Notes under the pieces: model-generated | The model's input: only the letters and a program-made list of their open reading frames with translations | Told to the model about the DNA's origin: nothing | The model's database searches: none | Position numbers and translations under genes: made by a program | Part shown: piece by piece, positions 11,268 through 40,149 of the stretch | How positions within the stretch are numbered: the stretch's first letter is position 1 | Layout of the letters: every line of letters starts with the position of its first letter | DNA from: Anoxynatronum buryatiense | Lineage (GTDB): Bacteria; Bacillota; Clostridia; Peptostreptococcales; Tindalliaceae | Direction of reading: 5' to 3' | Assembly: GCF_900182905.1 (NCBI RefSeq) | Contig: NZ_FXUF01000002.1 | Location: 124,001 to 188,000 of the forward strand | DNA length: 64,000 nt

Positions 11268-11283
11268 AACAACGAGCCAAAAA

Positions 11284-11536
11284 GCACCCTCTTCCAGGGT
11301 GCTGAGGATGAAGACAAAGGGCTTTGGCCCGGCCAGTTGATTCCAATCTTGTGTGTTTTTAGTCGAAAGTCTCGAAAACAGCGCCTGAACTCGCTGCGCT
11401 CAAACAGCAGGCGCTAGCGGTTTTCTCCCCTTTTCGAAAAAACACTGACAAGATTTTCAAGGCTGTCCTTTACCAAATCCCTTGTCTTCATCTTATTTTG
11501 TCTTCAGTCTGAACACCCACTTGCAGGGTGCTTTTT
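11284..11536 (+). repeat. Terminator-associated foldback element, copy A (long form)
   Basis: A terminator-like hairpin (11284-11302, GCACCCT loop AGGGTGC) is followed by an imperfectly palindromic body. The body begins GAGGATGAAGACAA and ends TTGTCTTCATC, TTTTGTCTTCAGTCTGA. A second, near-identical hairpin (11514-11531, CACCC ... GGGTGC) ends in T5. The two flanking hairpins match at 17 of 20 positions. The body ends form terminal inverted repeats of about 20 bp, and inner segments also pair. Relative to copy B it carries about 98 extra bases at the apex (11347-11445), themselves a hairpin. It fills the hutI downstream gap; nothing here is coding. Confidence 0.8.
11514..11536 (+). terminator. 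Terminator of the hut unit (right hairpin of element copy A)
   Basis: Stem CACCC/GGGTG with a seven-base loop and a T5 tail. It is the functional-looking one of the two duplicated hairpins flanking the repeat. Confidence 0.7.
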
Positions 11537-20192: not shown

Positions 20193-20346
20193 GAATCGCT
20201 GCAAAACGATTTGAGGTTGAAAACAAAGGGCGTTGGTCAGGGCAGCTGATTCCAATTCTGACAAGATTTTCAAGGCTGATCTTCACCAAATCCTTTGGCT
20301 TCATCATATTTTGTCTTAAGTCCGGAATCGCCGCAAGGCGATTTTT
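20193..20346 (+). repeat. Terminator-associated foldback element, copy B (short form)
   Basis: The left hairpin (20193-20212, GAATCGC ... CGATTT) and right hairpin (20325-20346, GAATCGC ... GCGATTTTT) match at 17 of 20 positions. Between them is a 112-bp foldback body that aligns with the outer parts of copy A. Shared segments include ACAAAGGGC, TTGG, TGATTCCAAT, TGACAAGATTTTCAAGGCTG, CACCAAATCC and TATTTTGTCTT. It lacks the apical 98-bp insertion of copy A. It lies directly after phoR. Confidence 0.8.
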
Positions 20347-40013: not shown

Positions 40014-40062
40014 AAAGATGAAAACGGGTACGAAAGAGATAATAAGACTCATTATCATGAAC

Positions 40063-40149
40063 ATGAAGCAAAAGTGCTTCATCATATCCCTTGTCTTCAC
40101 CGCATGTTGTCTACAGTCTGAGATGAAGCGAAAGTGCTTCATCTTTTTT
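40063..40149 (+). repeat. Terminator-associated foldback element, copy C (right-end remnant)
   Basis: Two hairpins, ATGAAGCA-AAAG-TGCTTCAT (40063-40082) and GATGAAGCG-AAAG-TGCTTCATC (40122-40143, then T6), differ at one position. They flank 39 bases that match the right end of copy A at 33 positions (TCCCTTGTCTTCA, TTGTCT-CAGTCTGA). The left part of the element is missing. The second hairpin is a good terminator for the Nudix gene and precedes the dehydrogenase gene. Confidence 0.8.
40122..40149 (+). terminator. Terminator after the Nudix gene (right hairpin of copy C)
   Basis: 9-bp stem with one G-T pair and an AAAG loop, T6 tail. Confidence 0.8.

Follow-up and report, generated by a model that had tools for sequence, protein, structure and literature searches.

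Whole target hairpins are duplicated on both sides of an IS1182-family MITE in Anoxynatronum buryatiense and of related insertion sequences

Introduction

The closest described systems belong to the IS1182 family of insertion sequences (IS), members of which, according to the available excerpt of one account, act with or without duplication or deletion, on a target sequence or a target structure (PMC12056078). IS1272 is described in the accessible sections of Wan et al. 2017 (PMC5678879) as removing the stem-loop that it targets, and duplication of the whole stem-loop appears there only as a theoretical pathway b in the legend to Fig. 13. The targets of IS1272/TnSha1 are hairpins, several of them terminators, for which the part of Furi et al. 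2016 (PMC4923244) at hand describes partial deletion and no duplication. IS1182 is also named, in a passage of another study, among the families over-represented between convergent genes (PMC9208149). In Methanosarcina acetivorans, ISMac2-related MITEs of the IS1182 family, of 160 and 169 bp, are tabulated with 14 and 7 copies in the available part of the report (PMC3852290).

Here, we describe a short element found in three copies in a stretch of 64,000 nt (the window) of contig NZ_FXUF01000002.1 of Anoxynatronum buryatiense (assembly GCF_900182905.1; 4.16 Mb, 47 contigs). Target-site duplications are usually taken as a signature of the transposase that is nearly fixed in length. Group IIC introns insert at terminators by a retroelement mechanism, and group II retrohoming leaves no target duplication. 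Direct repeats of widely varying length are reportedly listed for IS1182 in ISfinder, and part of the present finding may be recorded there.

Results

Copies in the window

The limits of copies A, B and C are given in Table 1. As a preliminary description of this DNA had claimed, the three copies have a common body and site-specific flanking hairpins, left and right resembling each other at each site, and we have refined their limits. The left/right match count given earlier for copy B stood, while that of copy A is now 18/21 and the earlier 20/21 for copy C applies to the core of its hairpin. Terminal inverted repeats do exist, but the pair given before lies inside the true ends of the MITE, by 3 nt on the left and 19 nt on the right; the true ends, GAGGATG/GAGGTTG and CAGTCTG, are flush with the hairpins. 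The body of copy A is 96 bp longer than that of copy B owing to a longer inner palindrome, and the DNA fold of copy A with its flanks had a z value of -7.4.

A scan of the 64-kb window against Rfam at the gathering threshold gave no match, in line with the earlier statement that no group II intron core is present. A degenerate group IIC intron, or some other terminator-homing retroelement, would explain insertion at terminators, but the empty Rfam scan, the retrohoming of group II introns without target duplication, and ends that match those of insertion sequences with a DDE transposase (see below) leave this reading with a negligible probability. Loose pattern searches with two motifs in the window gave counts near chance (12 versus 7.6 expected and 7 versus 12.6 expected).

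Table 1. Positions of the element copies and their flanking hairpins in the window
Feature	Position	Strand	Remark
Copy A, left target-site duplicate, hairpin AGCACCCTCTTCCAGGGTGCT, A-run before	11283..11303	+	
Copy A, MITE body, 208 bp, ends GAGGATG...CAGTCTG	11304..11511	+	
Copy A, right target-site duplicate, hairpin AACACCCACTTGCAGGGTGCT, then T-run	11512..11532	+	Single hairpin at the orthologous site in G002
Copy B, left hairpin duplicate	20193..20212	+	17/20 versus right
Copy B, MITE body, 112 bp, inner palindrome shortened	20213..20324	+	
Copy B, right hairpin duplicate, then T-run	20325..20344	+	
Copy C, left hairpin duplicate	40061..40083	+	21/23 versus right, counted by eye
Copy C, MITE remnant, right-hand 37 bp only, end TTGTCTACAGTCTG	40084..40120	+	By comparison with other copies
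Copy C, right hairpin duplicate, then T-run	40121..40143	+	

Copies in the genome and their flanks

Searches of the A. buryatiense genome with copy B and a merged query yielded 26 copies that passed the end criteria and are counted here, 18 of 207 to 208 bp and 8 of 84 to 112 bp, the latter with a shortened inner palindrome. The count excludes truncated copies and those whose ends are more decayed; of these, L023 and window copy C retain hairpins that match, and L019 and L020 do not. The element is short, non-coding and multi-copy, with terminal inverted repeats (the ends GAGGTTGAAGACAAA and CAGACTGTAGACAAA agree at 11/15 positions) and a target duplication, as expected of a MITE. By eye, the inner palindrome appears to have lost length in several independent events, with breakpoints that differ in copies B, L002, L003, L005, L026 and L031.

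The claim that each site has its own hairpin in duplicate held across the genome: in 20 of the 26 counted copies, the flanks share a repeat that is 18 bp or longer and at least 80% identical, and this repeat coincides with the site's own hairpin. Weaker repeats (68 to 77%) were found in three copies (L016, L028 and L066), and no match by the same measure in another three (L005, L008 and L063), of which L005 looks duplicated by eye, with an indel, and L008 has diverged. Copy L063 has two different hairpins at its sides, possibly through rearrangement between copies. In other sets, flank repeats of at least 15 bp were present at 4/6 sites in G016, at 7/10 sites of a MITE in the genus of G160 and in 5/6 IS copies in G038. 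When all four element sets were pooled (49 sites, including one false end pairing, L022 with a span of 117, counted as a miss), 37 of the 49 left/right pairs scored above 99% of 2352 pairs swapped between sites.

Copies with non-matching flanks, which the preliminary description had held to speak against a duplication, do occur but are a minority. They are L063, L008 and the decayed L019 and L020 in this genome, L044 and L051 in G016, L140, L148 and L150 in the G160/G175/G054 set, L096 in G038, and L302 and L307 in the survey described below, where the flanks of L295 are probably unmatched too. Recombination between copies or decay could be the cause.

The right hairpin has a T-run after it in 21/26 copies, the left hairpin has an A-run before it in 15/26, and 4/26 have neither. 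Judging from these counts, the majority of targets resemble intrinsic terminators, in many cases bidirectional. Differences between left and right hairpins showed no enrichment in loops (3 differences in 60 unpaired positions, against 33 in 404 stem positions), and 16 of the 33 stem differences fall in base pairs that still pair in both copies. Selection on both hairpin copies was considered, and we do not claim it, since differences are no denser in loops than in stems.

Empty sites

The orthologue of the copy A site in G002, of the same genus, has the same two neighbors, no element, and a single hairpin (AAACACCCTGCTTTCGCAGGGTGTTT) with the stem core CACCC/GGGTG, as in the copy A hairpins. 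At the second informative site, L102 of G160 (another genus), a homologous 151-bp MITE has a 29-bp hairpin on each side. When the flanks of this site are aligned to G175, the left and the right alignment share exactly 29 bp, which corresponds to one hairpin (AAAGGACGTGGAAAATTTCCACGTCCTTT), while G054 has one hairpin of nearly the same sequence (AAAGGACGCGGAAATTTTCCGCGTCCTTT) and G078 has one of another sequence. These two sites (copy A and L102) make up the empty-site evidence for a single hairpin, which the preliminary description had anticipated and which G002, G175 and G054 provide; at the sites examined, no relative had two hairpins and no body. The copy A site in G001 and G003 to G006 is also without the element but has a different downstream neighbor and no comparable hairpin, which makes it uninformative. 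The gene beside copy L013 is followed, in its orthologues in G002, G003, G004 and G006, by a single terminator of unrelated sequence, a weak but consistent observation.

Given that the repeats in the A. buryatiense genome coincide with hairpins and that empty sites carry one, the earlier proposal that the duplicated target is the terminator stem-loop itself is borne out. Terminators could instead have been duplicated in tandem beforehand, or the hairpins could be part of the mobile unit, so that the element only separates them. We consider this hardly credible, as there is one hairpin at empty sites and the hairpins vary between sites, and we found no support for it.

Source of the element

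A search for the MITE in 60 relatives gave a match at an E value of ≤1 in 52 of them, mostly short noise, with useful matches in G001, G002, G005 and G016. The last, from the same order, contains a distant element family that shares mainly the right end (TTTTGTCTACAGTCTGA) with the query and has the same hairpin arrangement. A search for IS1182-type transposases (Pfam DDE_Tnp_1_6, PF13751; E value, 1e-5) matched in 5/11 genomes and led to full-size IS with MITE-type ends adjoining hairpins in G038 and G036; it gave no match in G016, G002 or G005, though such elements or remnants are present there. All five full-length transposases of relatives scored above the cut-off (270 bits) of the NCBIfam model NF033551 (IS1182), at 411.8 to 478.4 bits, and three partial transposase frames scored below it (122.8 to 221.2 bits).

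Within the A. buryatiense genome, the MITE end CAGACTGTAGACAAAATA agrees with the ends of IS remnants on contig 6 (CAGACTGCAGACAAAATG, 16/18), contig 2 (CAGACTGAAGACAAAATG, 16/18) and contig 16 (CAGACCGAAGACAAAATG, 15/18). MITE and IS remnant have their ends in common, but not their interiors. The earlier reading as a MITE was right, and the shared ends assign the element to the IS1182 family. An intact autonomous partner with these ends was not found in the 47-contig assembly, which holds only fragments (contigs 2, 6 and 16); an intact copy could be missing from it. The sole full-length IS1182 transposase gene found in this genome (contig 22:3736-5142, L092) belongs to a different subgroup from the MITE, and its ends, called by eye, differ (the automatic survey search picked other ends). 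In the transposase frames of two IS loci (L091:128-1630 and L083:1174-1992), the final TGA has only its TG inside the IS, and the flanking hairpin contributes the A as its own first base.

Relation of duplication length to hairpin length

Duplications of 15 bp or more were present at 38 sites, and their length equaled palindrome length to within 1 nt at 33 of these sites by the right copy alone and at 28 by the left alone; 2000 label shuffles of the left-copy measure gave a mean of 6.1 and a maximum of 14 of 38. The correlation between the two lengths was strong for the right copy (r, 0.94) and weak for the left (r, 0.29), a probable consequence of decayed left copies that the hairpin finder misses.

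For a multi-copy test, the cleanest one because it compares near-identical copies of one IS within a genome, IS1182-type elements of 22 genomes were fetched and those of 21 compared (G479 was left out, and G668 gave no common block). Six of these genomes (G317, G435, G643, G333, G636 and G499) had both this end type and whole-hairpin duplications, and the others had neither. These six, together with G038, G036 and three single-copy IS, give 30 full-size IS copies from 11 genomes, all having this type of end. An exact duplication of 15 to 35 bp, matching one palindrome to within 3 nt, was found in 26 of the 30: 35, 20 and 23 bp in G333; 22, 34 and 27 bp in G499; 22, 26 and 29 bp in G643; 17, 24, 15, 21 and 15 bp in G038; 22, 22 and 17 bp in G317; 21, 20 and 23 bp in G435; 25, 20 and 20 bp in G636; and 24, 22 and 25 bp in G301, G531 and G588, respectively. 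In 23/26, the arms form an unbroken run of 5 or more base pairs starting at the outermost nucleotides, and in the other three (L323, L329 and L332) the palindrome is 1 to 3 nt out of register. The four copies without a duplication are three from G036 (one flank lost at a contig end) and L096, with a different hairpin on each side. We also observed that 23/26 of the exact duplications start with A.

Duplication length is set by the target structure and varies among copies of one IS. A fixed long stagger, with a transposase merely favoring palindromes of about 20 bp, would fit the many duplications between 20 and 27 bp. However, shuffled lengths do not match, and lengths within one IS run from 15 to 24 bp (G038), from 20 to 35 bp (G333) and from 22 to 34 bp (G499), every one of these duplications agreeing with a palindrome to within 3 nt. 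This spread argues against a fixed stagger unless the ends were mis-set, and we regard such a stagger as very unlikely.

Transposase tree and members with other ends

A quick method was used to build a tree of 42 transposases, in which a single branch separated all 19 rows with this end type from the rest (SH-aLRT, 98); 6 of the 19 were labeled by their ends alone, without a shown duplication (L091, L295, L301, L302, L307 and L309), and the IS1272 transposase is not among the 42 rows. The transposase fragment on contig 16 of A. buryatiense (best identity, 63%) fell in a starred set (99) of 16 rows, the other 15 of which all have this end type, and a tree on the 131 columns of the fragment gave the same split, with a clade support of only 70. 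Outside the clade are duplication-free members, including GGGGCTGT-ended ones and L355, whose end also begins CAGACTG, and likewise GGCCACTG-ended members. Survey members with GGGGCTGT ends had no whole-hairpin duplication, nor did those with GGCCACTGAAAA-type ends, whose duplications matched at 9/9 bp (L315) and 8/9 (L320).

We lean towards a reading in which one monophyletic branch of IS1182 measures its target by structure, attacking both feet of the extruded hairpin, and the point of attack on the stem-loop differs among sister branches (feet, loop, or stem with loss). Under this reading, duplication size is 15 to 35 bp in the exactly mapped IS and reaches 43 bp in the wider survey. If it is true, the IS1182 family holds natural versions of all branches of a model that has so far only been drawn.

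Some observations concern the members with other ends. By eye, the GGCCACTGAAAA-type-ended L315, L320 and L092 seem to sit within a palindrome. The GGGGCTGT-like-ended L325-L326 and L339-L354 have no duplication and often lie between an A-run and a T-run, as if a terminator hairpin had been replaced. A search for leftover complementary arms beside 22 duplication-free IS1182 copies (L324 was dropped, its core not being found) gave a median of 3.0 versus 1.6 when swapped. Hairpin replacement by these members is not claimed, since only 2/22 copies exceeded the 95% level.

Breadth in other genomes

A 17-mer of the element end, with at most one mismatch, occurs in 47/297 genomes of the window's order, and the exact 16-mer TTTGTCTACAGTCTGA in at least 117 stretches of public genomes, the matches listed including Bacillus and relatives, Enterococcus, Planococcus, Sporosarcina, Lachnospiraceae and Oscillospiraceae. 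Among these listed matches, a hairpin starts flush with the end of the 16-mer at 102/127 junctions, against 23/487 control windows, and in 74 of the 102 the hairpin has a T-run after it. At 38/60 testable junctions, again among the matches listed, the hairpin recurs 56 to 1744 bp away with an identity of at least 80% (21 of the 38 being identical), and at 22/60 no second copy was found by this measure; the 38 junctions represent 31 distinct elements, 7 of them entered from both ends. The swapped-hairpin control matched in 4/294 cases.

A survey drawn by transposase gave a match in 82/398 genomes. Among its best 30 loci plus L092, 9/31 had a perfect whole-hairpin duplication, several of these nine being in genomes that are also in the multi-copy test. 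At five further loci, such ends abut a hairpin on at least one side, with no matching pair or with a contig edge, and the remaining loci, where their ends could be resolved, have other end types. One of the nine, L319 (with L355-L357, G530), is a hairpin-flanked outer element with another IS1182-type IS nested in its middle, in three copies with similar flanks.

Discussion

The element sits flush at the foot of a mostly terminator-like hairpin, with a full hairpin left on either side. We consider it very probable that the MITE is mobilized in trans by an IS1182-family DDE transposase of the clade with ends CAGNNTGNNGACAAA and variants thereof, and that the whole target hairpin is duplicated in the process. 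Since a stagger of 15 to 35 bp is unusual for a conventional DDE transposase, we infer an attack on a cruciform. The palindrome would be extruded, bringing the two attacked phosphates, at the 5' foot of each stem-loop, close together, and the transposase would then join the element at the two feet, as in pathway b of the model in the legend of Wan et al. 2017 (PMC5678879). Gap filling or repair would copy the whole stem-loop, producing a complete hairpin on both sides. Because the outer A-run (left) and T-run (right), where present, are kept, each hairpin copy may still terminate transcription from its side, and the insertion may cost the host little.

The same element and target could also involve a stem-loop on single-stranded DNA, on the lagging strand or in a transcription bubble, instead of a cruciform. 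Single strands present during replication or transcription could fold into terminator hairpins, and the duplication pattern fits both substrates alike. The conventional DDE reaction, however, joins both ends to two opposite strands, for which a cruciform is the simpler fit, and we think a single-stranded substrate possible but rather unlikely. Attack on a cruciform is the reading that we prefer.

A duplication length set by the target is strong evidence, from genomic footprints, that DNA secondary structure is recognized in cells, and offers a clean system for testing. It also suggests a way in which a mobile element can enter a sensitive site, a terminator, and yet restore the terminator on both sides. 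Related full-size elements in other bacteria duplicate whole hairpins as well. Terminator duplicates with a spacing of ca. 0.06 to 1.7 kb may be misinterpreted, and software written for short duplications would overlook them.

Like group IIC introns, which insert at terminators, the element mostly has terminator-like hairpins as its insertion sites; unlike those retroelements, which leave no duplication, it leaves one and has no intron match. The enrichment of IS1182 between convergent genes, as stated in the passage at hand (PMC9208149), fits terminator targeting. The M. acetivorans MITEs share the IS1182-family assignment, but their direct repeats, in the available table as we interpret its column order, are 4 and 0 bp and not a hairpin (PMC3852290). 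In the accessible text of the open-licence literature (including PMC10969869, PMC4438569 and PMC3119063), we found whole-hairpin duplication nowhere as a regular outcome, nor variable duplication length, its link to one clade and end type, or MITEs spreading in this way. The IS1182 family, its preference for stem-loops, and its action with or without duplication are known already; what appears to be new, judging from the same literature, is the regular duplication of the whole hairpin, with a length set by the target structure, in one clade and end type, and MITEs that spread thus. As in IS1272/TnSha1 of staphylococci, going by the sections available, the transposase is of the same family by name and insertion is into stem-loops irrespective of their sequence, many of them terminator hairpins. 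Replacement of the stem-loop in the manner of IS1272 does not describe the present sites, which have two hairpins when filled and one when empty, with exact duplications in 26/30 IS copies. IS1272, in those same sections, is reported to destroy its target hairpin, and what determines the outcome can be tested by comparing transposases. Whereas the hairpin is wholly or partly deleted there, with no duplication, here it is kept and duplicated whole.
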